A program made the translations under genes and the position numbers. Shown in pieces: positions 21,676-44,997 of a DNA stretch of 64,000 nucleotides (positions are counted from its first letter, which is position 1; every line of letters begins with the position of its first letter). Location of the stretch: contig JAVLRN010000002.1 in the NCBI GenBank assembly GCA_032821775.1, positions 3,968,001-4,032,000 on the forward strand. Reading direction: 5' to 3'. Source of the DNA: Sanguinoderma infundibulare (lineage: Eukaryota > Basidiomycota > Agaricomycetes > Polyporales > Polyporaceae). The notes under the pieces are model-generated. The model was not told the origin of the DNA. It was given only the letters and a program-made list of their open reading frames with translations, and did no database searches.

Positions 21676-23342
21676 TCTTGCAGGGTCTGTTAACCAAAGG
21701 TCAATATTTACCAGCAGTGGTTTCGGACGTTTGCGAGGGCGGCGTACCTTTATTGGGGCCTCTGGCGAGCAATTGGGGTCGGTGCGAACTGGAGTTGCTG
21801 GGTGAGTGCCGCTACTGAGCACATTTCAGAGTATTTATAACCCGGCCGTAGCGTTCTGAAGCATTTCGCGAACAGCATCGACCACCCGGGCACTTTCGTC
21901 CGAAACAATTCGCGACACGTAGAATATCCGCTTCCGTTGGCGTCGGAGGTCCTGATGCTTGTCAAGGACTCTCGGCACAGTACATTGTGGAAATTCATAG
22001 TCAGATGCCTGGCCATTTGTCAACACATCCACTCGGGAAGCATCGGTTAACACAGGTTTCTCAATATGCGTAGCAGCTGTGAGTGAAAACTCGAACAACA
22101 TGTGAACATTCTCACAGTGATCGATGGCGGACGATGCAGCCCGCCTGGTAAATTGTGCTTCGGGATCTTCATTGTGTACATTAACCTCAAGGCTCGGGTC
22201 CGGTCGGCGATGACACTAAAATCATCTGATACACACAATGTTGGTGCGATGATATGTAAGGACATCAGCGAATCTGCGCGAGGGAGATGCATGGTGGTTA
22301 GACCTAACTATTGATCGCCGAGGAGTCCAACACCTCGTGTGGCATTATGGGCAGGATGACGCCGCTTCATCTCGAGCTCGCCTCGGTTTTCTGCAGACAG
22401 TTTTCAGTACTCACAGTAAGAGCGCATGCAATTCATGAACGGCATCCTTCAATTGCAAATATAAAGCGTGGAATGCATGTGTCCTGTTCGGACAATCTGC
22501 CAGTTTCATGTTGGCAGTCTGACCTCACCGTACAGCAACGCAGTACTCCGCTCCGACCATGGCCTCACGGCGTCCGTTTCCGATATACACGAGCGGATCA
22601 CTCGCAGGTGCCGGCACGAGGAGCTTGGGGAGCAGTGTGGAGAGGTCGAAGATGCGGCACGTCTGTGCGTATCTGAGAACTGTGCGTGTGAGGAGGCTAT
22701 TCAGAAAACTCTGCGGCTTGGTGTCCGAGTCGACGTGTAATCAGTACTCTGGAGGCTTCGACTGTGGCCGTCACGGTGAAGTCCCGGAAACTGATGCGCC
22801 ATCAACCGGAACAGGGGTAACGGTGGTTGAGATTGGACTCAAGAGACCTCGATCGTGGCGATGGTGAAGTCATCCGTCCAAGTGAGGGACGTGCAATATT
22901 CGACCGGTATCGTGGACCGGCGTGCTAACTGTAAAATTGCAGGCCGTCAGCCGTGTTTACGTTGCTCGGATGCGCGGGGAATTTGAGCGAACAAAAGATG
23001 CACTGCGACGCGGTCGCCGATTACGTATGGGATTTTGTGCCACCGGAAGCCTGGATCTCAAGCCCGGTTGCCGCGACATCCTCGTGCACGAGGTTAGTTA
23101 ACTAGAATCTACAAACGAGTTGCAGGATTGTAAGGCCCTCCGATTTCTCCTGAAGTAGAGTATAAGCACTTGCCTACAACACGACTCGAAAGGAGGTCTC
23201 CGGAGCAAGCCCTCCTTCGGCTCCAAAACTACGTGATGGCGATTAGCCCACTGTCCACGTTTTCGCGACGCTTGACATACCATTGGCAATTTGATGTACC
23301 GCCCCTCCGATCGGCCCATCCACTGCGCACAGGGATCGACAG
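21676..23342. other. Intergenic region, no recognised gene
   Basis: About 1.7 kb. Short plus-strand frames near 22.3-22.9 kb and 22.94-23.1 kb were read but show no family motif. Nothing can be supported here. Confidence 0.4.
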
Positions 23343-24855: not shown

Positions 24856-25572
24856 CTTCAAAGCGCTCGTGTCACCCTGAATGGGACTTTTGTGCATGAT
24901 CAAGACTCACAGAGATCGTCCGTGAGTGGCAGCCCACGATAGTCTTGCGACTCGGATGTTCTCTGATTTGGTCCTTGAAACCACGGAAGTGGTTTCCGTC
25001 AATTCATTGCCTTCGGTCTCGAGAGGAAGACGTGACATGACATACCAAATTGAGACGACTGAGCGTGGTAAAGCCCTCGCCTGCAAAGTAGTCGCCAAAG
25101 GATGAGCTGAAAGCGATAGTACAACCCGGCCGCAGCGAAGGTGACGTCCCGCACTGCCATTCCCATTTTGGAAATGCTAGCGCGCACGGAAGCGAGGCCC
25201 AAGTGGCATGCCTCAGGCTTGAACGTTAAAGCACACATGAGACTATGTTCCGAGTTGACAATTTTATATTATTGCGTGTTTTTGTGCCGGACTGCGTGTA
25301 CACAACGAACTCGGTGATCGTGCACATGCGCCGCCCGGGGGTTTTCTCTTTTCTCCCAACTGACATCGACCTCACGAGCCCTCCATAAACGACCGCGCCA
25401 AAGCCTCATCCAAAGCCCATCAGGTCCTCCTGGCGCATCCCTCTCGTTCCACCCCACGACCCCGGCCGAAGGCAGGGGATGGGAGAGACGCGCGCGCAAC
25501 CGTGGACGAGACCTGCGCCAGTCCCGCGGGGGCTGGCGAACGCCCACATAGTTACACCACTATATATAGGAC
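24856..25572. other. Intergenic region left of the KDZ element
   Basis: About 700 bases between the F-box-like gene and the left terminal repeat of the transposon. No gene supported. A CTATATATAGG tract lies directly next to the element end. Confidence 0.45.
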
Positions 25573-25614
25573 TTACCAGTTACCCGGCGGTAACATAACC
25601 CTGGGGTTGCTAGG
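25573..25614 (+). repeat. KDZ left terminal inverted repeat
   Basis: Starts TTACCAGTTACCCGG and ends TTGCTAGG. Matches the reverse complement of 44770-44811 at about 34 of 42 bases. Confidence 0.8.
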
Positions 25615-26064
25615 GAATCGGGCCCGGCCGGAATACCGCGTATCATAGGGTTAGGCAGGCCGGCCGGTCGCGTGCCCCAGTTAACCACAGATTGTCATGC
25701 TCATGTATCCTGACTGTCCAATTGTTGTAAATACATGCCCTCTATAGCGGTATTCACAAAAATGTACAACAAGTTCGAATTTACGCGGTCTAGGTGTACT
25801 GGGTGAAGTCACCGGCCGGAAAGCATCTACAGGGCAGAAGTATCTCGGCCGGTGGGTAAGGCTTATTACAGCTGATCCTCGGCCGGTGTAGTGAAGCAAT
25901 TCCTTTCAGTTTCCGGCCGACTACTAAGCCTTGGTACCAAGTATTGTGAGTACCTTGCATTATGAGCACTGGCACACCCCCCAATCTCTTCCCCAACTGA
26001 CAATATCATCGAATTTCAATATGCAATGGCGAGATACAATTACAACGAAACATAATGCCCAAAA

Positions 26065-27413
26065 TCACTCCTGTAGACTCTCCCATACTGTATCCACTGC
26101 CGTGACTCGCCGGGCCAGTGAATCTTGGTATGCTCGCCAATATTGTGGACCGCTGGTGAAAGCGGCGCTGTGCAACTGGCGAGCGATCAATTCAGCCTCC
26201 GTCAGCCCTTCTATAGTAGCTGCAAGTATTTCTCGATCAGCACGCATGCGGGATAAGCGAGAATGTACCCCAGCTTGGGGGTCATGCGTCACCACGGCAG
26301 GCTCCTTAGCCTCTTCGCTTGGGGGTCCCAGGGACATGTTACCCTGGCCTGTAGATTCGATAGCGGGCACAGGGTGAGCTGCCAGATCAAATGGGCGAGT
26401 GGCAAAGAGACCGTGCAGGTTGATCGGATCGTTCATCACTTCGGCAGGCCCCCTAGCCTCTTTGCTTTGGGATCTCCGGGATGTGTCGGTCTAAGACGGC
26501 GATTGAATGGGGGATATTGGAGGAGCTGCTGATTCGAATCCACGATTGGTGAACAGACCGTAGATCATCTCCGGAAACACCGACTCTGCCAGCGGCCCTA
26601 TTCAACACAATTGCAATTAAATGTCAATTGGCCAAGTAGATCCAAAGTCCACTCACTCGTGATTGTGATTTGGGATTCTTGGACGACAAGCGCACCGTCT
26701 GTCTGGTCATCTGACCACATCAGCTGGTCCTCGCTGAGCTCTCCCATTATTGGCAGGTCGAACGTAGCATCAACGGGCGAAGGGGACGACGGCAGCTCGT
26801 CCTCGCTGAGCTCTCCCGTTATCGGCAGGTTGAACGTAGCATCCACGGGGTAAGGGGATGACGGCGGCTCGTCCTCGCTGAGCTCGCTGGTTATCGGCAG
26901 GTCGAACGTAGCATCGACAGGGGAAGAGGACGCCAGCAGCTCATCCTCGCTGAGCTCGCCGGTCATCGGCAGGTCGAACGTAGCATCGACAGGGGAAGAG
27001 GACGCCGGCAGCTCATCCTCGCTGAGCTCGCTGGTCATCGGCAGGGCAACGTCCATGCCGACGGTGGAAGGGGACGACGGCAGCTCGTCCCCGCTATGGG
27101 TGCCCGTCATCGGCAGGTCGATTTCGCTGCCGCCAGTGGAAGGGGATAATGGAAAGGGCACCACCGGCTCTCCGGAGAGTGGTGAAGATGGATCAAATGA
27201 CAATGAGGACTGCGACGGTGGTGCCGATGTGGGTGAGATGTCTCGTCGGCAGTCCAGAAATCCTGTCGTTGGATCGTGTTCTTGCGGCGGAAGCTGCTTG
27301 CTACGTTCTGGAGATGCTTCACCAATTATGCCGGCCAAAGATGGAGGTGTTTGAGGTGGAGTCGGAGACCTGATACGAACTTGTTTCAATCCTGTATTAA
27401 TTTCCAGTCGCAT
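26065..27413 (-). pseudogene. Acidic 24-residue-repeat protein of the KDZ element, with an in-frame stop
   Basis: Exon 26657-27413 encodes a Pro/Ser-rich start and then about seven copies of a 24-residue unit (DATFDLPxTGELSEDELxSS). It splices (GTGAGT...GAATAG) in phase to 26597 and reads PLAESVFPEMIYGLF onward. An in-frame TAG follows at 26491-26493. Downstream the same frame stays open to 26065 and contains a second, related unit (GLFATRPFDL...EEAKEPAVV versus GLFTNRGF...KEARGPAEV). That continuity suggests the stop is a recent nonsense change, or that an unseen intron removes it. No known domain. It is divergent from the Zn2Cys6 gene. A possible further 5' exon lies near 27594-27860 but is unproven. 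Confidence 0.5.
26731..27120 (-). repeat. 72-base coding tandem repeats
   Basis: About five to seven imperfect 72-base units encoding DATFDLPxTxELSEDELxSSxxPV. The first and last copies are the most divergent. Confidence 0.75.
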
Positions 27414-27907
27414 GAGTACATTTGATTTCGCAAATTAAAACCGTTAGCGCACCTTCGCTTGGGGCACGGGAGATGCTGCGGTTCCGCAAGACGGGTGCTG
27501 GAAATGTTTGTGATTGAGCTACCTGTTCAATATGACCTATCCGAAAGGGCTCAATGTAAATGTTTTACTTCAATATGGGCAAATTGACGATCGTTACGCA
27601 CCTGCCGTAGGGTTTTTTGAGGTCCCCTGCCTGGACTCTCTGCCCCTAGCCCCCCCTCGCCGTGATGATCCTGTAAATAGTTTCAGCAACTGATAGACAT
27701 TGGCAGCTCTCGATATACATTCCTTTCCTTGGTGCCATATGCCTCCAGGACCTGCGAGAGTTGTGATGAAGGTACCGGGACAGAATCGATGGGCGCTAGT
27801 GTGCCACAACCTTTCCACTCGCGTTTTGCCGCTGATCTGATCGCGATCAACTGCCTTCATCCTCTGGCAGCTTTCACTTTTTTCGTATCAACGAGCTCAC
27901 TATCACA
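27414..27907. promoter_or_regulatory. Probable divergent promoter between two KDZ-element genes
   Basis: Lies between the minus-strand repeat-protein gene and the plus-strand Zn2Cys6 gene. It may contain an extra upstream exon of the former. No core promoter element identified. Confidence 0.3.
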
Positions 27908-30900
27908 ATGGCTGAAGCAGATGCAACAACGAACAAACAGCTGCCGCCCCTGAACAAACAACAGATCCAAACCATGCGCGAATATGCAAGCCGCCTTGAA
28001 TATGCCTTCCGGTGCCGTCCCCCTGTCAACCACCACAAATGGCGTTCTTGGCATGTCCATTTCCTGTCGGACTTTGCTGCCTTCCTCCAGGCTCTCGCAG
28101 TCGCAGATTTTCCGCGTATTCCACCGTTCGCTGCTGGATGTATTTGGGCCAACAATCTTCGGCAGCGTGCAGGAGAGACGACGTTCGATCCGGAAACGAT
28201 TACGTTCACTGGCCCTGGGCATAAGGCGTACAAGAAGGGAGTACTCGGCCGCCTTAAATGGGAGCCTGCCGGCGAGGAGGGCGATCTGTACGGGACCATT
28301 CCCGAGGATCAGCTGTATAACGTTTGGTGGGATCAGCATCGACGCGGTACGTAGCGGTCAGACTGCATTGATCCTACTCTCGCTAATTTCTATGCTACAT
28401 TTAGTGCTGAATGAGCCGCATCTGTCGCTCCCGATTAAAGCTGTGGAGAATGCGGAACGCTCCCGCCTGGCTGCCGCAGAAACGCAGAATACAAAAACAT
28501 CCCGCCATGCACGACCGGCCACCAGCAGGACGATAGGGAAACAGGGTACAGGTCATGGCTTCGGCACTGCAGTGATTCACTACTTACATTCTATTTCAGA
28601 CACAATTGGCAGTGGTGCCGCCGACGACGACGAGATGGCCGTCGATGGCGGTGATCACGACACCGGCACCTCGAAACCGACATCAGCACGTCGTGTTGAC
28701 GCATCGACGGCCGTCCTCGATCGGGACACTTCCGGCATCACCGCTAGCGGGCGCATGTTGCGCTCGTCATCTCGCCAGACGGCCGCAGAACCGGACTCAG
28801 ATGGGGAGAGCGAAATCGATGTGGATGACGAGCCGGAGGCCGTCGGTACCTTGAAGAAGAAGTCGGGACATCGCGGCCGCCAGCCCGCAAAGGCTGTGAA
28901 TTGGAACCCGCCAACGGACAGCTCTGCCGGGCCTCGCTTGCGGTCCGTCTCTCGATCCAGAGGTGCCGGTACCTCTACTCCACGCTCCACCACTACCATG
29001 CGTCCATCATCCACGAAGCCGCGCCCGAGACCTGCCGGAAAGGCTCAGTCCAGTGCCGGCACCTCCAGCAAGCCTTCCGGAAAGGTAGTGAAGACCCCGA
29101 ATGAGCTCACGGAGGAGAATTCCGCAGGTGCCATCGTGCCGCGATCGGGGCAGCGAAGCAAGGGTCTTCGGACCTTGTACGATATTGCGCCGGAGCAAAT
29201 TGAATTCCAATGGGTACCGCACGTACGTGTATTTGTCTTCTACCATGTGTTTTTGACTGATATATTATCAGCCGCGTCCATGCGAGCGGTGCCGGGGAAG
29301 GGACGAGCCGTGTCTTGTTATGCTGTTGATGTCTTCCGCTTGCAAGAGATGCCTATCCGCAAAGCATGGCTGTTCGCTCGCGTTCAACGTCAAGATCGAG
29401 GTTCCTCTCGCGATTTATCTTGGGTTTGCCGTCTGGCGCATGCGTTCCTCTCCTGACCTCTATGAAACTCCAAATTTCTCCCCTACGAAGCTCCCGAAAA
29501 CGTTTCCTGCCCAGGAAACATACGAGTGGTTTTCGAAGCAGTGGCGCGCGATTCCTCGGACGAAAGAGGCGAAAGCCAGTGCTCTTCGCGGAGCCACTCG
29601 ACCCGAGGCTGCCGGTGATGCTCATGATGATGCTGAACAGTCTGCTGATGAGCCGGGACGTGGTCGCGGTAGTCGGGCAAGGAGGGGTTCAGTCGCTCGG
29701 GCATCTCGTTCTCTGTCATGGGCACAATCACGCAATTCGACTACTCTTCCCGGCTCCTCTCGTGTTTCTGCAGAGCCGCCTCCAGCTTCTCCAACAACAG
29801 TATCCCGCCGCACATCGCCATCGTCGGCAGGTCGCATGTCGGTCGACCGGGAGGATGCAGACGACGAGCTCCGACTTGCGGCAGATTCCGGGACGACTGG
29901 GACATCGCGTACGTCTCGTGCAGCTCTTCGAGGAGCAGCGCAGACCTCAAACTCGCGTCCCGGACGGTCGAGAAGATCGCGTGCATCCGTGCCAATCGTG
30001 GTACTCCCGACCAAGGTGGACGAGGCCGCATTTTCTACAACGCTTCAGCGTGCCCCTCCTGCTCTCCCACTCAGGCACCGGAGCTCTGGACCTGCCACTC
30101 GGACCGAGTGGACTGTCGGTAGCATCAAAGGTGCGATTTGATTGCACATATATCCGTTGGCAGCTTGCTGATCTTGCGCTGCACAGGATCATGGAAGGAT
30201 CTGCCGCGGGTGACGAAGGACATGTATCGTGGACTGTATCGAGTGGCCGACCCGCCGCATGCAGACGGAACTGCAAACGCGGCACCGATCGTGCCTCGCA
30301 TCGATCGCGATGGTTTCGAGATCCTGGACAGCCTTCGAATCCATCCAGCCGACCTGCCGGACGGGTCGGATGCGACTGATTTCCAGGCGTTCCGATTCAC
30401 GGATCCCCTCGCGCAGATGATCGAGGCGACAAAAGCTAAATTCGATGAAATTGTCTCACTGGGTACCGCTCTCACGCGCGACGCCGTCATGTTGCGACGA
30501 GAGGCCAGCATTGTTACCAACACTCGGAACGAGATTCACAGCACTGCCCTTGCATCGGAAGACGGCTGGGACGCTTATCATGACTTGGTTCGATACAGCG
30601 ACCTTCTCGGTGACCATCTTGTCAATGCCCTGGAGTCCATTGCAGCACTTCGCGACATCCTTGCTCGTTTCTCGGCAGCATTCTCGAGTATCCCGCCAGT
30701 TCCGTTGAACTGGATCGCGATGCGGGACATGCTGCAGCTCGTCCAGGACCTTCGAACCCTATACGCAACAGCATTGGAGCGCATGCATATGTTTGAGGAA
30801 GACTTCCGTCCTGTCCGGGAGCGGTTACGCCGTGTGCAGGTCCAGGTGGACCGCAACGAGGACGAGTTGGCAACGTTTGCGAACATGGCCGCCTCCACAT

Positions 30901-31595
30901 GCGAGCCGATGGTGCGCAATCTTGGCCAGCATCTCGCCGGCAGCATCGCGCTGCTCGACAGCCGTGTGCGGCAGCTCGAGGGAGTGGAGACAGAGGTGCC
31001 GGATGCCTCGCGCATCGGAGAGGAGGCGGAGGCAGAGGTCGTGCGGCAGCTCGAACGAGTGGAGAGCGAGGTGCCGGAAGCTTTTCGCACAGCCGAGGAG
31101 GCAGAGGCAGAGGTCGCAGAGCTCGCGATGGAGGACGTGCCGGTTGCTCAAGGTAGAGAGGCTGAGGTTCCTGGACTGCGGGACGCAACAGTTGGTGAAC
31201 TTTTCAGCGCGGTCAAAGACTTGTCAGAACGTGTCGACACTTTGGAGCGTGGACTTCCCCAGCGTAACGAGGACGACATGAAGCTCGCTGTCTCGACATA
31301 CCTCACAGAACGCGGTCTCTCAGACGACCTCCTGCGCGGACTCGCGGTGGCTCTGACCACTGGTACTGGTGATGCCCCCACAGGCGGCAGCATCAGCGTT
31401 GGGCCCCAGTCCTTCAATATCCAGGTGATCGCACGCCATGGAGGAGAGCGTGAGGATGACGATGGTGGCGGATCATCATCGCAAGCAGCTCCTCCCGCTG
31501 GTGAGCAGCCGCCAGATCTCGGCATAGCTGCCTCTCCTTCTTCACCCAGACCTGTTGCTAGAGGAATGCGAGCTCGAGCTGCCGGAGGAAAGTAG
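27908..31595 (+). CDS. KDZ-element protein with Zn(2)Cys(6)-type cluster and C-terminal coiled coil
   Basis: Five exons (27908-28346, 28405-28545, 28600-29222, 29272-30130, 30187-31595) are all phase-compatible and give about 1,156 residues. Residues 405-435 form C-x2-C-x6-C-x9-C-x2-C-x6-C, which fits the spacing of the fungal GAL4-type binuclear zinc cluster. On either side are long Ser/Arg/Thr-rich disordered stretches. Residues from about 790 to 1,050 contain helical, heptad-rich sequence with two near-repeats (RQLEGVETEVPDASRIGEEAE and RQLERVESEVPEAFRTAEEAE), a likely coiled coil. The first 140 residues contain conserved-looking Trp/His/Cys positions but no family I can name. DNA binding is inferred; a role in transposition or in regulating element genes is possible but unproven. 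Confidence 0.68.
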
Positions 31596-31760
31596 AGGAT
31601 GCATAAAACGAAAGCGCTGTGTACAATGTACGTTACATATGGAGTGGTCGTGAATGTCTCTGGAATCAATGCCTTAGCGAATTTCTACATGTACATATCT
31701 GAACGAGATGCTGAATACGAGGAAACGTGGTTGGAAAATTAACGGAGGGGGATGAGAGTT

Positions 31761-34742
31761 CTACGTAGCCGTTTTCTTCTTCTGCGTCGAGCGCCGCCTG
31801 GTGGCACCTCCTGCGGCTGCCGAAGTGCTCTCAGCAGCCGGCGGAGGTGCCGCTACCTGTTTTCCCTTCCCCTTCAACACTGGCGAATCGCGCGCAACAT
31901 CTGCCGAATGCGTAGCCGACCCCAAGGCGTCAGAACAAGCCTGCAACACGATCGCCCGATGTCCAACCACCAGGTTCGAGTTCGCCATGTAGTCCGGCAG
32001 GCGAGTTGTCTGCGTGTTGGATTTCTGAGCCTCTGCGAGAAGCGACAAATCACGCAGCACGATGCCCAGGACGAGGCAGTAGCGTTGTGTGTCTGCCGGT
32101 CCAGCGGCGGCCTCAACGCCTCTCTTGATCCAGTTCAAGAGGGTCTCAACGGTCTTCGCAGATGCCTGCACGGTAGCCGGCACATGTGCGCCCTTGAACG
32201 CCCAGGTTTCCCAGAGCACGGGAGCTCTCGCGGGAATACCACAGAGCTGCTGGAGCTGAGATGTATGTCAGTGAGACTGTGTACCATGCAGCGATACCAA
32301 CCGTACCTTGTCACCCATCCGCATGATCATACCTTGATAGTCCTGTTCATCGGACAGCCTAACAAGAAATTGGTGGCGCACATATGCATCGTAGCCTACG
32401 GCCGTTGGTGTGAGCAGTGGAAGGGTTTGCGGCTGTTCCGGACATGTGTTGCCTCTTGCGTCCGTGGTTGCAGCGTTGAAGCTGTCACTTTGAGCCTCTG
32501 GGGCGTTGAATGGTTCGGGATTGGCTGCACGACCTGCATAACCAGCCACAGAGTCGGTCTCAGCGGAAGCCGACACAGCGGGAGCTTGAACGCGCTGTGG
32601 ATCGGATGAGGGAACGGATGGATGAACGGGAGAGGTATGGTTTCCGAGAGAGCCGACATCAGCAGCGGTTGCGGTGCCGATTGTAGGGAGTGTGCTCACC
32701 GGTGATCCGAGATGATCGGGAGCAGGAGCTGAAATCTGAGAGACAGTGGGGGCACGAGCAATTGGTACCAGTTGCTCGACAGGGAGAGAGGCAGGTAGGA
32801 TGTCCCCGACGCTCTCACCATCGCTCACCATATCGTCTGCACCCTCCAGCAACCAATCTTCCACCTCGTCATCGGACACCTCCGGCTCGTCTGCGGCATC
32901 CGGAACAAATGAAGGGTCACCGTCATCGTCACTTTCTTCGGCATTCTCGGTCGCGGCAGCATCCACATCAACTTTGGAAGCGAGCCACGGCTGGGGTCCG
33001 CTGTTGTCCCGTCCGGAGGCCTTCATCTGCCGACGTGGCCGTGATGGTCCGGGCGTTGGAGGGGGTGCCGGAGAAGAGCTCGCTCTCTCTGCCTGAAGCG
33101 CAGCCCGGACCTTTTCGATATCCATGGAGAGGGCACGCTGGACTCGTGATCCGACATCCGGCACGGTTGGCTGAGATGGCGCAGGGCTGCCGGGAGCGTT
33201 CGACGGGCTTCCGGGAGTGTTTGATCGAGTGTTGTCACCGGCGGCAGGGGGACCGGTCTCAAAGTTGGGAACACGAACCGCTTTTTTCGTGCGCCGAGTT
33301 TCCGAAGCAGCTTCGAAGCTGCCGGCATACACGGCAGGGATGTAGATGCGATGGGTGCAGGGGCCGGACTCGTAGTGACTGAAGCGGAAGCGGCGGGGAG
33401 GGGTGTCCAGGTCAAAACGATCGGGAGCTTCCATTCGGATGACATGGTTGAAGAACGCGAGAAGCTCTGGCTCGTTCAGTTTGCTTGGTTCTTGAAAGCT
33501 GAACCCTTCCAGCAGCATACCAGGCTCGAAGAAGGACACAGGATGCTGCCCCAACGACTGCCATGGCGCTGAGCGCACCTCCCGCCCAGTCGCGTGACCT
33601 GCATTGTGTCGGTGAGACAATACATGGCGGGGAAGGGCATGTCGAGCACGTACTGTAGTGTTGCTTGAAGTATTCCTGGAATATGTCCTGCCGACGGCTG
33701 TTCAGAATGCTGTTGCCGTTCTCCTCGTTCACCAGGATAGGAGTGCCATCTGCATATAACGCGAACTGAAAGGGGGCTGCACGAACGCGCTTGATTCCTT
33801 TGACGAACTCGAGCGTATCGGGCTCAGCAAGGTCGGGACGGAGTGCTGCTTGAAAGAACGTCCATGCCTGCCGGCGAAAGTCTTTGTCCCATCCCGGCAC
33901 GTTCCGAAACAGCAGCGAACTGCTGTCAGACTGATTCCAGAGCTGGGACGTGTCGTAGCTATCGGAATCCGTATGTCAGTTTGTATTGCAAGCTGCCGGG
34001 ACATCGATAGACTTACACGGCAGCACGCATCTTGCCATTCGTATCCTCGAACATGCCGTAGATGAAGATCGGCATGTTGCACTGTTCTAAAAAGAGGCTT
34101 GCGACGGCACGCATCCACGATGGTGCCCTCCTCTCAGCCATCCTGGTAAATGTACCGGGAGGGTCAGGCTGGCGGCACGCATGGGCAACTGTGAACATAC
34201 ATTGGCTTCAGATCCTCGTCTGGACCCTGCTGACTCCAAAGCTCGGCCAACCTGTAATAGACCAACTGATCCTCTGCTGAGAGCTGAAGCCACAGGTTTC
34301 GGCAGGTCGCGTTCCAGGCGACAATGTATGCGCGATCGTCGGGATCGCCACTCGATTGTTCCTCGCCCAGTGTCTGTCGAATGAGGTCTGCGTTCTTCAT
34401 GCCGAAGACGCGCTGAGGATGAAAGGATTGGTTGATGCGGAGTGGAAGGCGAACACGCTTGCGAGTGTCGGCGTTGTTTTGGAACCAATTTCGCACCTTC
34501 TGCTCTGCGGAATCAGCAATTTGTGAGCGTACTCCAGGAAAAAATGGACATACGGCAACAAAGAGGTCGACAATGTAGACGTTGGTGGAGTCTAGATTGC
34601 GGCTCTCGATGATGACCTTGGCACACTCCTCGCGGAGAGCTTCCTTCCCGGCCGCTGCTGTGTTGCGATAGTCGACGAGGCGCGAGTTGAGATACGTCTC
34701 ATCCGCATTGGACAGATCGCTAGGGCGCGGAGGCATTGGCAA
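31761..34742 (-). CDS. Uncharacterised 902-residue protein of the KDZ element
   Basis: Six exons (34554-34742, 34201-34502, 34017-34142, 33654-33958, 32307-33598, 31761-32255) splice without any phase conflict. The N-terminal half is compact and rich in aromatic residues (KVRNWFQNNADTRKRV, SWMRAVASLFLEQCNMPIFIYGMFED, GWDKDFRRQAWTFFQAAL), suggesting a folded domain. The centre is an acidic, Ser/Pro-rich linker. The C-terminus is helical and ends in a basic RRRSTQKKK tail, a possible nuclear signal. I do not recognise the family. ATGs at 34742 and 34736 are equally possible. It converges with the Zn2Cys6 gene and is divergent from the TET/JBP gene with about 350 bases between, a likely shared promoter. 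Confidence 0.62.
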
Positions 34743-35088
34743 AAGTTACAGCTGGATTAGGAGGTCAGAGAGAATACTAGCCGGAAGACAACATAATCAA
34801 TATGGAATGGACGTACAGACGTGCCACTGAATAATGGCTCATAGGATACTGTGGAGGGTGCGTGCCACCTGTCTTTGAGTCAAATAGCGGAGGTCAGAGC
34901 GGTTGCGCTGGGTGCCGACACAGGGGGAGACAAGCGAGACATACGGTGGTGGCAGAGAAATGAAGCTGGGCGTAAGGGAACGGCGGGAAAGGTGCTCTGC
35001 CGGTCTAGCTTTCGTCGGATCGAGGGGGTAGGCTAATAAATGTTGCGCTGTTCCGTGCAACTAAGTAACTGTATTTGGTAAGTGGATA
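34743..35088. promoter_or_regulatory. Divergent promoter region, 902-residue protein / TET-JBP gene
   Basis: 346 bases between divergent start codons inside the KDZ element. No TATA box recognised. Confidence 0.35.
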
Positions 35089-36858
35089 ATGCCGGCCGGG
35101 TGCACAGCTTTCTTAAGCGATCAATCAAATCATGTTTTCGGCTATTGGGATCCTCTGAATATCCAACTTCGCCCCAAGTGCGCATTTTCACAGCTGTTTG
35201 CATGGTCTCCTGTCATGGACAACGTACTCCACACCCCATCTGCCCAATTCCAACGCCGCGCAGCGACTGCACAGTTTATAGTCAACCTCGAACAGTATTT
35301 CACGAAGCACGGTGATAACATAACGCCCCACCAGCAGCTCATTTCGCAATGGCCCTTGCCCCCTGATCACCTGGATCGAGTTGCGGTGGACGACTGCCGA
35401 ACCGTCGCCTTCACGCTGTCCAAAGCCCGCTCCAATCAATGTATGTATCTGATTCATTCCGATAGCACTGTTCACACTGATTTCTTCCAGATTCCGTGAA
35501 TTGGGATGCAACGGCGTACGCCCATGAGGTCTCCCAAAAGGTCATTCCTGACCTGGAGGTGGAGAATCATCTGATGCAGAAGTATGAACCGCTCATCGGC
35601 GTCGAGGAGTTCCATGCCCGATGCGACTGGAACCTTCCGTTGGTCGTCGACCCAGCCGTCTTTACAGATAAGAATGGTCGAGTTCTTGCCTGGTCGCTCC
35701 CGAATGTTCTCTCCGAGAATCGGCAGGTATGTATTACATTGCGGCAGCTGCACCGGGGGTGCTGATCATCGGAAACAGCAAAAGATATTAAAGACGACGC
35801 GGATCCTTGAGGCTCAGCTGACAATCAAGACAGCGGAAGCCAACCAGCCGATCACGAAAGGATGGCGCACGGCGGACACCTTTTTCTCAAAAGGGGCCGA
35901 ATGGGACTCGGGGACGGTTCTACTCTATCCAGCGGGGTTTCAGCAAGGGCACACAGTACGACCGGCAGCCGAAATTCATTTCCGGCACCTACTGATCTCC
36001 ACGACAGGGTCAACACTTTGATCCGGCACCTAGCATGGACGTGCAGTCAGCCCGAGCTTCCGACTGGATGCTGGACTTTGAGGAGTCTGGCGGTATCCTG
36101 GACGGGATCCTCGCGGTAGCTCATCCAGAACTATACGAGGCCAGCCAAGACCTGATGGAGCGGTGTGTCATGAGACACGCATCTTGCGCTTCCCTCATGG
36201 CCACCTGGCCCATGACTTTCACATCTGTGCAGATCATTGTGAATCGCTCGACTCTCCGCCACCGCGACACCAGTGCGATGCCAGGTTGGCTCGACCTGCT
36301 GCTCACGCTCGGCAGCTACGGTGAGACAGGTATCTTTGAGATTCGTAATCTCGGCATCTCGCTCCCGTACGGTTCCGGCTCTGTGGTTTTGCCAACCTCG
36401 AGGCTTCTCATTCACGGCGTTCCGAATGTGCTGAAGGATCGCATTGCATACGCGTTGTACATGAACAAGGCCGTGTACGAGTGGTTCAAGGTGCCGATGG
36501 TCAGCACAACGCAGCTAGCCACATCCGGTGAGTCCTTCGTTGGCTGAGCCGGTCCACATGATTCACCTCCTGTTCAGAGAACGCAGACGTTGTGGATGAC
36601 GTGCCGAGCGGAGCTGGACCACACACGGCAGATCAGCAGGACCTCCCGGCACCCATCGATAAGGGAAAGGGCAGGGAAATCGAACCGCCGGCTCCCGTGG
36701 CACCGGCAGCCGACGGGAGAGGGGATGGAGGTGCCGGTGTGGAACGCGATGAGCCAATGGACGAGGAGTCTGATCTGACGGAGGAAGAGGAGTCAGATCT
36801 GACGGAGGAAGAGGAGGATGCGGATGGCGAAACAGACGGCAATGACATGGAGGAGTAG
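35089..36858 (+). CDS. TET/JBP-type 2-oxoglutarate/Fe(II) dioxygenase (KDZ-associated)
   Basis: TET/JBP enzymes oxidise 5-methylcytosine or thymine in DNA. Five exons (35089-35440, 35491-35726, 35779-35955, 36008-36527, 36578-36858), phase-checked, give about 521 residues. The catalytic block is in exon 4. NRSTLRHRD supplies His340 and Asp342 of the HxD iron motif. LLIHGV gives the distal His391. Arg400 of KDRIAYALYM is placed to bind 2-oxoglutarate. Upstream, the DKNGRVLAWSLPNVLSE and GGILAVAHPELYE-like blocks match fungal Tet-like proteins. The last exon is an acidic low-complexity tail. The gene ends 70 bases before the transposase start on the same strand. All key residues are present, so it could be active. 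Substrate (5mC versus other base) is inferred from the family. Confidence 0.8.
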
Positions 36859-36928
36859 AGTACCAACACGGCATCAAACATTTGTCGCTCCCCATCCCCC
36901 TGCGCGCGCCACTGTCTATGATACTGTG

Positions 36929-39900
36929 ATGGCTAGACGACGATTCTTAAATGCACCTACTGGCTTTGACGAGATCACGGCGGGTACTCGAAAGACGAAA
37001 CGGGGAGTTCAGATTGTTACAAAGAAATCAAAAGTACATTTCACCGCGCCCGAAGCCGTGCGCGAGCCATCGACATCGACTTCCCGCCGTACACCGCAAG
37101 AGGCTGCCGAAGCCCCGCCCCCGGCAGCTATCGATGACTACAGCGAAATAACACTGGAATCGCACATACGTCCTCAGCGCAAAGGGAAGGTAAGGAAATA
37201 CTTTTATGAAATAATACGCTAAGCATTGACATCGCCGGGACGTCCAGTCGCAAAACGATTTCCAGCGCGAGTACCTCATCGTCCAAGATGAATACATCGA
37301 CCGGCAGCTCATGCTCGAGGCTCAGCCGCCCGGGAGAGTTGGAACATGTGGTCATCAAGCCCTCTGGAGGTGTCTGACATGCCATGCGACACCGACCTTC
37401 TGCAGCAGCTGCTGCCGTGATGCTCACCAGTCTCATCCCCTTCACCGCGTCGAATTTTGGGGCGGCACATTTTATAGACCAGCATGGCTACGGCAGCTCG
37501 GACTCCAAGTACACTGTGGCCACCGCGGTGCGCAATGCCCCGCGTTAGGTGCATACGACACTGCTGAAGAGCAGCAGCCGCGAGTTCCTTCCATTGTCGA
37601 TGATCTGCCGTCCCTAGATCCCGCCAGGCAACCACCCACACCGTTTCCCTTCCTCCCCCTTGCCGAATCCGTAGCTACCGACGATGAAGATGGGAATGAA
37701 GACGATGAGCTGCCGTACCTGGAGGAGGAGCCTGACTCTGAGATGGAAGATGAAGACAGCAACTTCTACCTGGGTTCTGGTGACACTCTGTTGCCTGAGG
37801 TGTCTGACCTACCGTGGGTCGGTGAAGGCCCTCGCCGTCCTGCGCCGAGCACCTCGCCTGCTGCCTCTGCATTCTACAGCAATGACCGGATGATTGTCGT
37901 TGTTGACACGGACGGAGTTCATGAGTTGCCGTTCACCTTCTGTGCTTGCACAGCTGCCGAACGCCAGGACTTTCAGCTACTCGATCTCGGCTACTATCCC
38001 GCCTCTATCACTCAGCCAAAGACAGTCTTCACGACTCGCGTTCTCGACGATTTCTTGCTCGCAAACAAGGAATGCAAGACTTCGGCACGAAACTACTACA
38101 ACAAGCTTCGTCGGACAACCAATGCTGCCTTTCCCCATATGGTGCCGGTGTGTTGCCCAGACCCTCGTTGCATATAATGGATTGAAACGCTGACAGACAG
38201 TGCTAGGATCGATACAAGGAACTGCTCCGTGTATCTCGTCAATGGCGCAACCAGCAGATGCGGAAGCTGGCGGGTTTTGCTCACCGGCAGCAGGCGATTG
38301 GGCCCGGCGATTTGGCAGTGCGTTGTCCCGCATGTCCCCAGCCAGAGGTCAACCTACCTGAGTCATGGCGAGATGATCCTGAACAGTACGTCACCTACTC
38401 CTCCTCTCGGCTGATTGTGATCCTCATTTGATTAGATGGAAGTACACCCGATCCGTCGTTCTCGATGGCAATTTCAGCGCGCAACATCGGCACATGCGAA
38501 ATCCTGAGGACGACATTTCCTTTGCCGATGGACACGCCTTCATGGTAACTGATGCACCGTACAAGCAACACCTCAAAACCGCAACTGAATACCAAGAGGT
38601 GCGTCACGTAGTCGCATCGGCTGCCTCGCCTAGACGTTAAGTGAGATGCACTGTCTTGGGCAACTCAGAAGTCAACATGCAATGATCACCGTGCAGTGCT
38701 GAATGCAACCATTGACTGTGCAAAGCTGGAAGCTACCGGGATTGGCGCGGCAGCGTGTTCTAGGCATGGCTTTTTCGCCCCACACGCATCCGTCGACTTC
38801 CAACAGGGCGAGCGGTATGCATCTATGAATTCAGGAATCGTTCCGACAGCCACACTAACCTGCCGATAGCCAGCGGAACATGGACTACGTACTTAACTGG
38901 GTCCTCGCATATCTCAACGGCCTCACCCGCATTCTCGTCCTCTATGACATTATGTGCCAATATTTCATTCATTTGTACGCCAGGTTTGAGAAGAGCCCGT
39001 TGCTTCACATGCCCGAGGGCCTCACATTCCTGTGCGGTATCGGCCAGTTTCACGTCCATGGGCACATCCCGCAATGCTTCCCTCGCTTCTCGTGCAACTT
39101 TGTCGTTGGAGCCGGTGTCCAGGATGGTGAAATATTGGAGACACTATGGAACAAGGTCAATGCGATCGCAGATAGCACCAGGGGAATGTCGGCAGCACAC
39201 CGTCGGGAGGTCATTGACGACCACATGAACGACTCCAATTGGATGAAGGTCACCAGAATTAGTAAGCTACGTATGACCCCATAATTTTCGGCAGCTTACT
39301 GACCATCGTATCAGCCGCACTACTCACTCGGAAGTGGAAAAGGGCATGCCAACAATGGAAGCCTGCAGTATCCGCATTCGAGAGCCTTGCGGCAGCTACC
39401 GATGCCACCAAATGTACCAAGTGGAAGGCTGAGGCTGATGCCGCAGATGCCGAACGATTGCGGGACCCATCAGCGATGGACATCTATGCTGTCTCATCAA
39501 ATCCTTGTGAGTAGTTCGAGGTACACTGTGAACGAGAAATGAATTTTTGTCAATAGTGCCGACGAGGAAGGAGGTGCAGGTCATGCTTGCACAGGAAGAG
39601 CTCACCGATGCTGGGGCGTCCGATGAGACTCTTGGAGCTGCGGACTGGATTGCACATGGGCTGATGATTGAGGAAACAAAGTAGGTTTCTGAAGCGTGCC
39701 GAAAACGCACACTAATGACAGTGTTTCAGACTCGCGATTGCTCACACCGCTCGTTGCACCAAGGACAGTGCCGGCACCCAGGCAAGGCTGTCACTCGTGC
39801 AAAAACGGCAGCGCCTCGCTTCCGCTATTAGCGCATTCCACAAGACGGGACGGAAGCATCTGCCGGGCCACCTACCGGGTGATGGTGGAGTCCTCGGTGC

Positions 39901-40783
39901 GGATCTCACGATGTTCGGTGACGAATGGGATATGCATAACGTCGTCGGTGAGGCCATCCGAGAGCTGCCGGCAGATCGTCCTGAAACCCATCCAATTGGT
40001 CTGCCGTCCACGTTCGGAATCGACTTCCTTGCTCAGAACGATATGCTGGACCTGGCAAAGAAGGAGCGGCAGCTCCGTGAAGGTCAGCTCAACGATGCCC
40101 TACAGGGAATACGCACTGGAATCGGGTACAAATCTCTACTGTACCGCGCTAAGGTCTGTAACGCATCATCATACCGGGCGAAATTGCGCAGCTTCGACGA
40201 TGTCCACGTTGCCGACGAGGGAGTCCGGAAGCACGTCCGGGTCTATCAGCAAGCTCGAGCAGCGATGGGACGGCTATTCTATCTTGACGACCCTGAGGAT
40301 GTGACAGCATTCGAACGCTTCCGAACAACATACAAAGACATCAAGAAGGAAGATCTGAAGACGACAACCGCGGTCATGGAATCCTTTACACCTGGGCTTC
40401 GCAACGAACATTCGGCCTGGTTCTGGAACATCTCAGACACTGAGTCTGGAGAGCAGAGTACGTGGATGCGAGACTGTGAGTCGATCGCGGTACCGATATA
40501 CCATTACAAAGCACTTACCAAATCCACAGACCGTCGCATGCTGTGGCTTCGGGCATATGCTCGTAAGTCCCGATGGGATGAAGAGGTTGTCCTGGTGCCG
40601 TTTGAGATGGACTGCACGGTTCGCACATTCGAATGGAAGGCTGCCGATTGGGAGAAATGGAGCACAACAGCTAAAACGCCGGGTCACTTGGCGTATGCTC
40701 ACCGGCAGGTCTCAATGTGGCGCAGTCTCAAAGACCATGCGGTCGGAGTCTTTTCTAGTGCACGGAGTAAATATGTACCGTAG
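36929..40783 (+). CDS. KDZ transposase with CxC2-type cysteine cluster
   Basis: Ten exons (36929-37189, 37248-38147, 38207-38385, 38436-38598, 38669-38814, 38870-39261, 39315-39506, 39557-39680, 39730-40475, 40530-40783) join in phase to about 1,118 residues, typical for the family. Residues about 121-154 carry the CxC2-like cluster (CGHQALWRCLTC...FCSSCC...HPLHRVEFW). The RNase H-like core shows VVLDGNF (Asp457), VLYDIMCQY (Asp576) and GEILETLW (Glu637 or Glu640) as likely catalytic acids. The helical C-terminus has WLRAYARKSRWDEEVVL, common in KDZ transposases. No frame break was found. It should cut and move the element, presumably acting on the TTACC termini. Confidence 0.85.
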
Positions 40784-41093
40784 AAAGCAGTATGTTAGAC
40801 CGTCTTCGGAAGCATTGACTGGAATATTGAGTGCATGAATAAGGTGCCGCAGACGGCCATAAATCATGGATATGACGAGAAACGCTGCCTGCAATGAAAT
40901 CCTGGCACTTACAATCGTAATAGCGGAATTAGCATCATTTTGGGCAGCCTTGACTGAGACAGAGTGCGGCAGCGAGGTGCTATGGTTGGTGCCTCATTGT
41001 TGAATGCCATGTGACGCTTGGCCCGGGCCGGGACGGCTACAATACCATTATGTACCTTCGGCAGCGAAGCTTGCTATCCCAAAAGCCGCCATC

Positions 41094-41865
41094 ATGATAC
41101 CGGCACCTCAGAATCCTGCTGGTGCCCCGTACCTCAACGTACGCGGTACGGCACGTCTTGAAGTGCTCCTCATTACACGCCGAATCTCCTCTGCGCTGCA
41201 AGCAATGCCGCAACCTCCAAATGACCTCACGATACGTCGATGGAACCACGGAATCGGTCGGGAGATGGTACGCACTAAATCTAAGAAACACCTCGGTTTG
41301 GTGTTGATATACACTCTAATGGTTCCGGATTTATTTGTAGTGGACGGCGATGTGCGCGATTGGTCTCACAGCCGCAATGGAGATGACACTGGCAGACTAC
41401 AATACCGTCAAGCGTGTGTGGTGCAAACCACTCGCGTATCTCCTTCGGGCCTCTGTTTGGGAGAACCGTCGGCTTCACATCGATGTCAGCAACATCAACT
41501 TTGCAACGTATCAATGCCTCGCAACATTCAACGAGCAGGTTTTCCTCGGTATGGAGGACTCATGGATCTATCCGCAGTGGTGGACGTGGGCAGAAGATGG
41601 GCCTGGTCAGGGACACCGCACTCCCGGGTGGTGGATTAACCCTGCTTCAACTGTCGTACGTCAACACGATCCCATTTCAGAAGATACCAGTGCTGACGCG
41701 CAACAGGGCGCCCCGATTCCTATTTTTGAGTCTGACAGGGACGACCTCCGCGCGCTCGCTGGTGAGGTGTATTTGCGTATTGGTCGTATCGTTGAGGAGA
41801 AGGAGGAGGAACGGCACAGACTCGATGTTCGCATCATTGAGGAGGAGATGGAGCTTAGTCGGTAG
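41094..41865 (+). CDS. Small uncharacterised KDZ-element protein (232 residues)
   Basis: Two exons (41094-41267 and 41341-41865) join in phase 0. The protein begins MIPAPQNPAGAPYLNVRG, has a Trp-rich centre (WWTWAEDG, GWWINPAS) and a charged helical end (IVEEKEEERHRLDVRIIEEEMEL). No known domain. It follows the transposase on the same strand, about 310 bases downstream, and precedes the repeat-rich right end. Confidence 0.5.
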
Positions 41866-41930
41866 GCGGATGCACTTGCTGTTTCCGTGCGCCAAGATTT
41901 CGATGTACAACAAGCACCTGAACCAGTAGA

Positions 41931-42130
41931 ATGTATCACCACATTATTGTTCAGCCCTCAGACGTTAGCGCTATAAAACGGTTGTTGGTGCCGAAGCACT
42001 GACCACGTGCTGGAAAGGCTGCCGTCGAGTTGATCAAAATGTAGACCCATCTTACTGTTCAGCCATCACACTTGAGTGCTATAAAACGGTTGTTGGTGCC
42101 GAACCACTGACCACCGGCTGCGACGGCTGC
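41931..42130 (+). repeat. Two direct copies of a ~108-base repeat
   Basis: The core GCTATAAAACGGTTGTTGG and the following GTGCCGAA.CACTGACCAC occur twice, about 108 bases apart, preceded in both copies by TGTTCAGCC. The shared TATAAAA could be promoter-like but no gene follows closely. Confidence 0.8.
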
Positions 42131-42633
42131 TGCGGAGTGAATCTATGGATATTCAAGGACCGGCAGTAGAACACTCTGGTCGAAATCGTGTCCGCCATCG
42201 GCGGTCAACGAATGAATAAAACGGCGATACTACACAGTAATTATCATCATCAAAGCGGCCAACGAATGGCCGTGGCCCACGGCGTAGACCCTGAAGTGTA
42301 ATACTTGAGTCAATTAATTCTCCCGGCACTGCTCTCGCGGTACTGCTCCTGCGGCAGCTCCGTCCCCTGTAGCTCCGGTCCACCCGAGGTCTTTGCGGCA
42401 GCCCGCTAGCGGCAGCTAAGGCACCTTCCGAGGAAGTCGAGCGCGTCATGCCCGATACGTAAATTATGTACCGGTAATGCTAGAATGAGAATAGTAATGA
42501 GCGTAGTCCCAAAACAGAGAAGAAACCTACTTACATCTTCTGTGGCCACCGTGGTAGGGTGGGACCGTGTGACTGCAATTAGACCTCAGCTTGCAAGACT
42601 AACCTTGCATAGTCTCACAAGCTGACGACTAAT

Positions 42634-42725
42634 CCACTGCGGCAAGGTAGGCCATACCACTGCGGCAAGGTAGGCCATACCACTGCGGCAAGGTCGGCCA
42701 TACCGCTGCGGCAAGGTAGGCCACA
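42634..42725 (+). repeat. 24-base tandem repeat, four copies
   Basis: CCACTGCGGCAAGGTAGGCC plus ATAC repeated four times with single-base changes, the last copy incomplete. Confidence 0.85.
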
Positions 42726-42819
42726 TCGCGCGGGCATGCCCCAGCAGCACCGCGACTACTGCGGCGACGGAGGAAGCCTCCCGGGCCTACCCATACATGG
42801 TCCTGCTTGAGCATAGGCT

Positions 42820-43375
42820 AAATTCACATTGACTAGAAGGTTGACTCATGCAGTACACTTCAGGGTCTACGCCCTAAGCCTTGTATGATCCGCGGGGGTT
42901 GAGCCAAAGTCCGAAAACGAGAAGAGGGCTAGAGGCCCTTACACTCGGGACAGCCTCCCGCGGGCTAGGCGAGTAGCCGTGTTCGGACGGGGACGATGGC
43001 TGCGGTGAGCAGCCAGAGGATGAGGAAGGCCGTGGACGCCGCCAAGGAAGGGAGCTGCCGGGGTGAGACCCGAGCTAGACCACAGCTGCCTGGGAGAAGG
43101 CTGCCGCAAGAGCACTACCGCGAGAGCAGTGCCTGGAGAATCTAAGACATTTGAATCAGCATTGGCTCAGTTCACATTGACTAGAAGGTTGACTTACATT
43201 GTACACTTCCAGTTCTACGCCCTAAGCCTAGTACGACCCGCGGGGGTTTGCGTGGACGTGCGAAGGCGAGAATAGAGCAAGAGAGAATTTACACTGAGGA
43301 TTGCCTCAGATGGGATAGGTGAATAGCCATGTTCGGCAGGCAACGATGGGCTGCGGTGAGCAGCCAGAGTACTAC
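42820..43375 (+). repeat. Two diverged direct copies of a ~205-base block
   Basis: Block at about 42,825-43,025 (starting TTCACATTGACTAGAAGGTT, containing CTACGCCCTAAGCCT, CCGCGGGGGTT and GGCTGCGGTGAGCAGCCAGAG) is repeated at about 43,170-43,372 with substitutions and indels. Confidence 0.75.
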
Positions 43376-43439
43376 CTTAGCTGCCGCACACTTTTTATAC
43401 TATTCTGGCATGGATAGTACCATGATGAGATTGGAGAGA

Positions 43440-43860
43440 GAGATTGGGGGCGGTGGACAATGGCTGCCGCTCGAGAGCTACCGTCGAGATCTGCGGTAGA
43501 CTACAGCTACCAGGAGAGAGCTGCCGCAAGAGTGCTGCTGCGAGAGAAATATTGTCTAAAGCTACCGTCGAGACCTGCAGTAGACTGAAGCTATGGGGGA
43601 AGAGCTGCCGCAAGAGTGCTGCCGATCAAGCCTAGCTCCCGTTGAGAGCTACCGTCGAGACCTGCGGTAGACTGCAGCTACCGGGGAAGAGCTGCCAAGA
43701 GCAACGCACGGTAGATGGCAGCTACCTGAAGAGCTTCCGCAATAGTACTACTGGGAGAGTGCTGCATGGAGAGAGCTACCACGAGAGCACTGCCAGGAGA
43801 GAGATGCCGTGAGTGACAGATTGGATAACTAACAGCCGGCAGCTAACGCAGCTGCCGCAG
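43440..43860 (+). repeat. Cluster of GCTACCGTCGAGACCTGCGG / GAGCTGCCGCAAGAG repeats
   Basis: At least four imperfect copies of AGCTACCGTCGAGA(C/T)CTGCGGTAGACT(A/G)CAGCTACC, alternating with GAGCTGCCGCAAGAGTGCTGC, arranged in the same direction. Confidence 0.7.
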
Positions 43861-44769
43861 ACTTGATATGCTGCTGTGCGACCTGTGATGCGATGGTGAG
43901 ATTGGAGAGAGAGATTGGGGTCAGTGGAAAGCGACGTCACAGCTGCCATAAAGTCAGGCTTTCAATGTCCAATGAACGGCAGCCGGGATGGCTGCCGTGG
44001 ACCATACTTTGGTTTCGGGAGTTTGCGGTGGCTCAGGCCGCTGCTATGGAATGGTTGTTGGCGCAGAAATGAATCTGCGGGTCACGGGCGGGACCTGAGG
44101 ATGTTGAGACGCGTGTGCATGACTCCAGTACTGACATCTATGCTGCGTCCGGGTGATCAGTGATGTCAACAAGATAGAAATGTGCCAAATACAAAGTGCT
44201 CCCACTGCAAACCTTCCGGAAAGAGTCAATACCCCACACGCGCAATCTACGTCAACCACTGTACCCAAGGTAGGGTATTGATAAGATCGATTTGGGGAAT
44301 CGCAGGTGGTGTTGTGTATGAGATATGTGACATACAATAAATAATACACATGTATTAATATGTTGTGGACAAACCGAAGCGTGTGGGGGTTCGTGGATGG
44401 TCGTACAATTGAGACTTAACCATGTCGCCGGCCGGCTGGCAAGAGCTTGGAGGGCAGCCACCGGGCCGGCTAGCAAGTGCTGGTATAATGTCTCATGGCC
44501 GGCTGGCAAACACTGTGATGTCATTTAACTGTCTACAGAGCTTGAAAACAAGAGCAACAATAGTATACCTCTGTTTTACATATGTAACAGAGTTTTTAGA
44601 ATGAGGAATCGCACACAGGACCACTGGGGAGGTATCTGCGTTCATAACCGGCCGGTCAGCATAGCCACCTATAGACGCCGACCGGCCGGGGCGCTAAATG
44701 CAGCCACATCGGCGCGCCCGGCCCGGTAGCAAAGGTGGCTATGATGTGGGTCCCGGCCGGCGCCTGCTG

Positions 44770-44811
44770 CCTAGCAAAGCCGGGGATATGTTACAACCGG
44801 GTAATAGGTAA
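44770..44811 (-). repeat. KDZ right terminal inverted repeat
   Basis: Reverse complement starts TTACCTATTACCCGG and ends TTGCTAGG, pairing with 25573-25614. Confidence 0.8.
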
Positions 44812-44997
44812 TATAAGCAATTGTGATGGAATGGTCTCGAACGCCTGTCGTGCTTGTCCGGTGGTCCTCTGTTGATCCGGTATGGGCGTGAGATACAAAC
44901 TTAGGACGACGTGCGAGAGCTACTTACCGAGTGCACCGTATGGGGCACATGACGGAAAGGCATCCGTGCTCGAGGGTGCTGTGGACACGACCTCGCT

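Follow-up and report, generated by a model that had tools for sequence, protein, structure and literature searches.

A multi-gene TET+ Kyakuja-type transposon in Sanguinoderma infundibulare and the CpG decay of its near-identical copies

Introduction

Arabidopsis VANDAL elements carry the anti-silencing protein VANC. This system is cited in a recent account of Kyakuja elements with a TET gene (Kojima 2025, PMC12730594), the parts of which drawn on here describe two Laccaria Kyakuja families without terminal inverted repeats (TIRs) and with termini 5'-CA..TG-3', a feature given as descriptive and not as classifying, and report that only TET+ Kyakuja were found in the Polyporales. In the same parts of that account, the function of transposon-borne TET is stated as not validated, and whether such a TET protects its own transposon is an open question in print.

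Here we analyse a stretch of 64,000 nucleotides (the window; contig JAVLRN010000002.1, positions 3,968,001 to 4,032,000) from the polypore Sanguinoderma infundibulare (GCA_032821775.1), in which a preliminary description had proposed a KDZ transposon moving a TET/JBP gene together with partner proteins. As judged from its sequence, the element is best filed as a TET+ Kyakuja, a known kind, since its 7-bp target duplications, its left-end CA, its TET gene like that of Coprinopsis cinerea (CcTET) and its KDZ transposase agree with the TET+ Kyakuja of the partly covered PMC12730594.

Results

Ends, size and target duplications

In a search of the genome (48,895,467 bases in 87 contigs), the left 128 bases of the element gave at least six matches and the right 112 bases at least seven. 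Left and right ends combine into five pairs, on contigs C17, C7, C2 (the window copy), C9 and again C2 (family 1); a sixth end pair, on C8, belongs to a diverged copy, and one right-end match on C10 is partial. With the C8 copy included, the copies measure 19,294 (window), 19,294, 24,678, 19,175, 19,320 and 29,683 bp. This whole-genome search, suggested in the preliminary description, therefore yielded four more near-identical copies that have both termini in common with the window copy, and not the differing termini that had been named there as an argument against the element.

The ends were set by alignment with these four copies of the same genome (Table 1): the element opens with CACATAG at 25545 and closes with GGTCTC at 44838, beyond which the sequence is unique across the five copies. 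The 19.2-kb element first placed at 25573..44811 thus stands, with ends that had to be moved to a slightly larger span. The 42-base inverted arms that had been taken for its termini do form a pair (34 of 42 positions match) but were rejected as termini, as the five copies continue 28 and 27 bp beyond them on either side; because sequence common to the five copies extends past both arms, the inverted repeats are subterminal. When the two 200-bp ends of the window copy were compared, the repeat extended to the 59-bp match given in Table 1, and a second family of the genome (family 2) has a subterminal inverted repeat of 39 bp at 82%.

The expected 8-base target duplication was absent, the bases beside the first-proposed ends (TATAGGAC / TATAAGCA) forming none. 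Exact 7-bp duplications flank all five family-1 copies (GAACGCC in the window, CTGAGCG, CCGCTTC, ATGGGCT and GGAGTCT), with the eighth base matching in some of the five only; the duplication is also 7 bp and exact in both family-2 copies read, and 7 bp with one mismatch in the diverged C8 copy.

The left flank of the element in the window holds ordinary host genes: SURF6 at 5586-6920 (-), PTPA at 7891-8799 (+) and a FAD-binding protein at 20476-21825 (-). About 0.8 kb to the right, a second transposon adjoins, with a Plavaka transposase at 45651-47384 (-) whose domain reaches to ~47727 (Pfam E 4e-91).

Table 1. Features of the element in the window
Feature	Position	Strand	Basis
Whole TET+ Kyakuja-type element	25545..44838	.	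Alignment with four near-identical copies
Left target site duplication, GAACGCC	25538..25544	+	Equals 44839-44845
Left subterminal inverted repeat (42-base arm of the preliminary description, 25573-25614)	25573..25631	+	59 bp, 76% to right arm, E 1.4e-9
Gene A, 271-aa protein with 24-aa repeats (72-bp tandem array 26651-27154)	26598..27413	-	Gene models; pN/pS 0.61 in frame vs 1.02-1.24 in other frames
Gene B, 1174 aa, 4 exons, Zn2Cys6-like motif C2C6C9C2C6C	27908..31595	+	Gene model; pN/pS 0.59
Gene D, about 902-917 aa, predicted N-terminal homeodomain-like then HMG-box-like folds	31761..34736	-	Gene models, Ganoderma relatives; pN/pS 0.49
Gene E, TET/JBP dioxygenase, 521 aa, 5 exons	35089..36858	+	Pfam Tet_JBP, CcTET match; pN/pS 0.52
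Gene F, KDZ transposase, 10 exons + doubtful exon 36757-36791, CxC2 cluster + KDZ domain	36859..40783	+	Pfam; pN/pS 0.22
Gene G, 262-aa protein, start uncertain (232 aa in the preliminary description)	41004..41865	+	Gene model; pN/pS 0.51
Right repeat-rich stretch without gene model	41930..44838	.	~88% to diverged C8 copy vs 67-71% in gene regions
Right subterminal inverted repeat (arm of the preliminary description, 44770-44811)	44753..44811	-	Pairs with left arm
Right target site duplication, GAACGCC	44839..44845	+	Copy of left duplication

Gene content

A simple exon model, with the C8 copy as its guide, gave six genes with predicted exon ends. The transposase (F) contains the KDZ domain in full (Pfam 1-217 of 217, E 8e-48) with intact acidic motifs in the window copy, as well as a CxC2 cluster (E 1e-22); the complete ten-exon gene seen earlier is borne out, its ten exons fitting from 36859, with one doubtful first exon now added. 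The TET gene (E) lies between the mapped ends of the element, and its TET exon matches Pfam Tet_JBP (E 1e-13) and CcTET (E 1.6e-12). Aligned with CcTET, it keeps the HxD motif, the distal His, the Arg and the equivalent of Asp337, in agreement with the metal and cofactor residues initially reported, and residue 331 in CcTET numbering is Ala in all five copies, so activity on 6mA might depart from that of CcTET.

Gene B carries a C2C6C9C2C6C pattern, which we take to be a Zn2Cys6 motif; Pfam did not report Zn2Cys6 in gene B, and the pattern is conserved across the 10 loci read as well as in one Ganoderma relative. The 902-residue gene of the preliminary description (D) proved real, the new model of 917 aa containing a stretch that is missing in Ganoderma relatives and is best read as a missed short intron. 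A separate gene C was dropped, as the first model had split D and the Ganoderma relatives show one gene. For D, homeodomain and HMG box profiles gave best Pfam E values of 0.25 and 0.27, in two Ganoderma relatives; neither domain rose above the curated Pfam cut-off, and there was no match for the window N-terminus. Foldseek matches to D were not significant (best E 1.8), a model of the D family as a whole was poor (pLDDT 47) and had no significant hit in Foldseek, and a D profile searched against PDB sequences found doubtful matches only, in the low-complexity part of D. Relatives amounted to 10 proteins for D and one for B, all from Ganoderma, and a profile search gave seven (among ~8000 candidates scored each time). 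From these predicted motifs and folds, B and D look like DNA-binding proteins. The main exon of gene G had no Pfam match. Gene A had no match in family 2 or in a third family (family 3), with both of which B, D, E, F and G do align.

Recurrence of the gene set

To place the gene set in the genome, loci were collected by a search with F, E, D, B and G, in which the best 48 of 171 candidates for F and 39 of 50 for B were scored, and those for E, D and G in full. Among the matches listed, 16 loci emerged: five of the window family, the diverged C8 copy, seven of family 2 and three of family 3. All five genes occur in 15 of the 16, which thus span three families and one diverged copy; the sixteenth, a family-3 copy near 330 kb of C2, breaks off in gene G and lacks it. 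Gene order is the same across the 16 loci, G being inverted in the C8 copy. Comparing the gene content of related copies, as had been proposed, therefore showed five genes to be arranged alike in 15 of 16 loci, and D, B and G had no match outside the 16 loci among the candidates scored. The partner genes accompany the transposase at 16 loci and so are not host genes picked up by accident; the proposal of a KDZ transposon that moves a TET/JBP gene along with partner proteins is supported in that other copies have the same termini and these partners recur beside the transposase.

From the protein search, with its 16 loci, it had seemed that all TET genes of the genome fall within this gene set, an idea dropped when a search by profile yielded 29 Tet_JBP matches, of which these loci account for 16. 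As 13 of the 29 lie outside the gene set, B, D and G are not general TET partners in this genome. Five further Tet_JBP matches stand 18.6-18.9 kb from a KDZ match (C12 81-101 kb, C10 363-383 kb, C3 3953-3972 kb, C2 4724-4744 kb and C18 188-208 kb); the near-constant spacing of these pairs probably marks another, larger TET+ KDZ family.

On contig C2, 276-336 kb, a triple nesting was observed, with a family-2 Kyakuja copy inside a CAC..GTG element (TA duplication) that itself lies in a family-3 Kyakuja copy. The left end of family 3 (C8:2101-2121 kb, C2:276 kb) bears a second Zn2Cys6-like motif, apart from that of gene B. In the C8 copy, the inverted G was seen when element positions 25.7-26.7 kb were set against window 41004-41930, and identity right of G is ~88%, up from 67-71%; the right side of this copy looks like the product of a recombination that swapped a right end.

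Selection and state of the window copy

Between the window and C8 copies, true-frame pN/pS ranged from 0.22 for F to 0.61 for A (Table 1), compared with 0.99-1.90 in shifted or antisense frames of the same alignments, which lay above the true frame for six of six genes; the alignments were made at the protein level, which favours the true frame somewhat. By this comparison of sequences, the six window-copy genes are under purifying selection, and the lower true-frame pN/pS, together with the alignment of B, D, E, F and G across families, argues that the partner genes are maintained.

In the window copy, the six models, which were fitted to that copy itself, contain no stop, no frameshift and no lost splice site. 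This copy differs from the five-copy majority by 154 changes, with 4 missense changes in A, 16 in B, 18 in D, 9 in E, 13 in F and 3 in G. Across family 1, TET is open in all five copies, the transposase has stops in three (C17, C7 and C9), and gene B of the C7 copy is interrupted by 5.1 kb of inserted sequence. Autonomy of the window copy is possible.

CpG decay of the copies

Compared with their majority sequence, the five copies carry 734 changes at columns free of gaps. CpG transitions account for 655 of these and transversions for 8; of the remainder, 60 are further C>T or G>A changes and 11 are T>C or A>G (CpG changes number 660 when columns with a gap in one copy are kept). Per site, CpG transitions reach 4.1% and transversions 0.008%. 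The CpG change rate depends on the 5' base (A 6.4%, C 4.0%, G 4.0%, T 2.8%), and the order ACG > CCG = GCG > TCG is that of spontaneous 5mC deamination. NCA contexts changed at 0.05-0.18%, as against 2.8-6.4% for NCG, so that the CpA preference of Neurospora-type RIP was not seen and CpG changes dominate. Along the element, the CpG changes showed no strand runs, clusters or trend (chi2 P = 0.62), and they affected 4.8% of synonymous, 4.0% of missense and 3.7% of noncoding CpG sites (synonymous vs missense, P = 0.04). CpG changes common to two copies numbered 46, with 51 ± 6 expected if they were independent, and the copies are alike in age (chi2 P = 0.25); such independence and similar ages indicate a star-like burst from one source. 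The five copies were recently mobile and later decayed nearly only at CpG, the usual mark of DNA methylation.

CpG-type changes make up 76% of the differences in family 2 and 88% in family 3 (two copies each). The C8 copy hosts an LTR retrotransposon that has no known TET (one LTR at ~131-1617 of sequence L027, and its partner), whose LTRs are 99.3% identical with CpG transitions at 8 of 10 differences; since this pair decays alike, CpG decay is not special to the Kyakuja element. A protection of the ends from decay was considered for family 1, where 3 of 230 CpG cells changed in the first 400 bp (element 1-400) and none of 180 in the last 200 bp (element 19094-19294), and was set aside as a weak lead, as family 2 does not repeat it (2/37 and 3/34).

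The source lineage

CpG observed/expected is 1.046 for the majority, 1.00 for family 2, 1.04-1.08 for the window flanks and 0.74 for the old C8 copy; within the majority it is lower at the ends, at 0.90 in the right 2.9 kb and 0.86 in the left 1 kb. Transversions separate family 1 from the C8 copy at ~12% of sites (1159/9842), compared with ~0.008% within the copies, and form 50% of this ancient divergence. Decay at the rate of the resident copies would have erased the CpGs of the lineage, which argues that the transmitting lineage was mostly unmethylated or moved on quickly. It seems, therefore, that the transmitting lineage escapes the decay of resident copies, as any active transposon may.

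Discussion

We read the element as a KDZ/Kyakuja cut-and-paste transposon with a history of a burst from one source, host methylation and CpG loss, in which TET and the products of B and D spare the source copies, and we put the probability of this reading at about 0.7. Its transposase F would recognise both ends and insert the element with 7-bp duplications, and one CpG-intact source would have given the five copies in a burst. The inserted copies would have been CpG-methylated by the host and then have lost CpGs by deamination. TET (E) would oxidise 5mC, by analogy with CcTET, and TET with B (Zn2Cys6 motif) and D (homeodomain/HMG-like) might preserve or establish an unmethylated, expressed state in source copies for as long as it takes them to transpose; B or D, as putative DNA-binding proteins, might recruit TET. 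A self-contained form of anti-silencing, targeted by sequence, with D and B binding element DNA and bringing TET, so that source copies stay unmethylated and CpG-intact while abandoned ones become methylated and decay at their CpG sites, strikes us as decidedly doubtful. Against sparing by TET, the TET-bearing copies have themselves decayed, uniformly along the element, and a CpG-rich source lineage would equally be expected for any element that moves on shortly after it has inserted.

TET and its partners might instead be cargo for transposition itself, for example in regulation or in assembly at the ends, and not for escape from methylation, with CpG decay as unrelated host biology. The uniform decay of TET-bearing copies, and the same decay in the retrotransposon LTR pair, agree with such a role, and D and B, which resemble DNA-binding proteins in their predicted features, could serve at transposon ends. 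We nevertheless hold it to be rather unlikely, in view of the TET active-site residues that are kept, the purifying selection and the open TET frame in five of five copies, and because a 5mC oxidase is a plausible match for a host with methylcytosine-type decay. The dead-relic view, in which the window copy is a remnant of an element no longer moving, is a real possibility at somewhat less than even odds: the changes from the majority, including those in F and E, and the transposase stops in three of five copies suggest it, and the six window-copy genes, free of stops, frameshifts and lost splice sites and with the KDZ acidic motifs kept, point the other way.

The decay itself could stem from active RIP-like hypermutation and not from passive deamination of methylated CpG. 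CpG methylation together with CpG-biased RIP has been published for Ganoderma sinense (PMC4457147), and CpG hypermutation has been reported in Tricholoma (PMC6980582), in the parts of these papers used here; the extreme ratio of CpG transitions to transversions also fits an active process. The lack of single-strand runs and clustering, the uniformity over 19 kb and the similar rates at synonymous, missense and noncoding sites argue for deamination, as does TCG being least hit, unlike the Pucciniomycotina TCG preference cited in the covered parts of PMC12730594, and we accordingly think RIP-like hypermutation improbable.

For the published question of TET and self-protection, this genome lends itself to a natural test: its copies are young and of the same age, several families are present, CpG decay can serve as a clock, and candidate DNA-binding partners might direct TET to a target. 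A literature search that took in PMC12730594 in part found no Kyakuja partner genes among the matches listed, though they may be in print; the conserved partners, the repeats inside the ends and the record of burst and decay are apparently undescribed, and part of this may likewise have been published.

Comparison with known systems

In its proposed role the element resembles VANDAL with VANC, as a transposon that may code for proteins undoing its own methylation; unlike that system, it carries an oxidase and predicted DNA-binding proteins. With CcTET of C. cinerea (PDB 7vpn, 8jkk) it has the aligned HxD, distal His, Arg and Asp337 equivalent in common, whereas similarity is limited to the domain and Gly331 is replaced by Ala in five of five copies. 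Zisupton and Dileera, also KDZ elements, have the same transposase domain but 8-bp duplications according to the covered parts of PMC12730594, as against 7 bp here. The closest likeness in those parts is to TET+ Kyakuja, in the KDZ transposase, the CcTET-like TET/JBP gene of AG type, the 7-bp duplications, the left CA and the Agaricomycete-type host. From Kyakuja as described there the window family differs in its last base, C and not G (CA..TC; family 2 of the same genome has CA..TG), in its subterminal inverted repeats, where no TIRs are recorded, in Ala at residue 331, where Gly or Ser is given, and in four further conserved genes that those parts do not describe. Kyakuja thus includes at least one lineage with several genes, in which transposase and TET are not the whole of the element.
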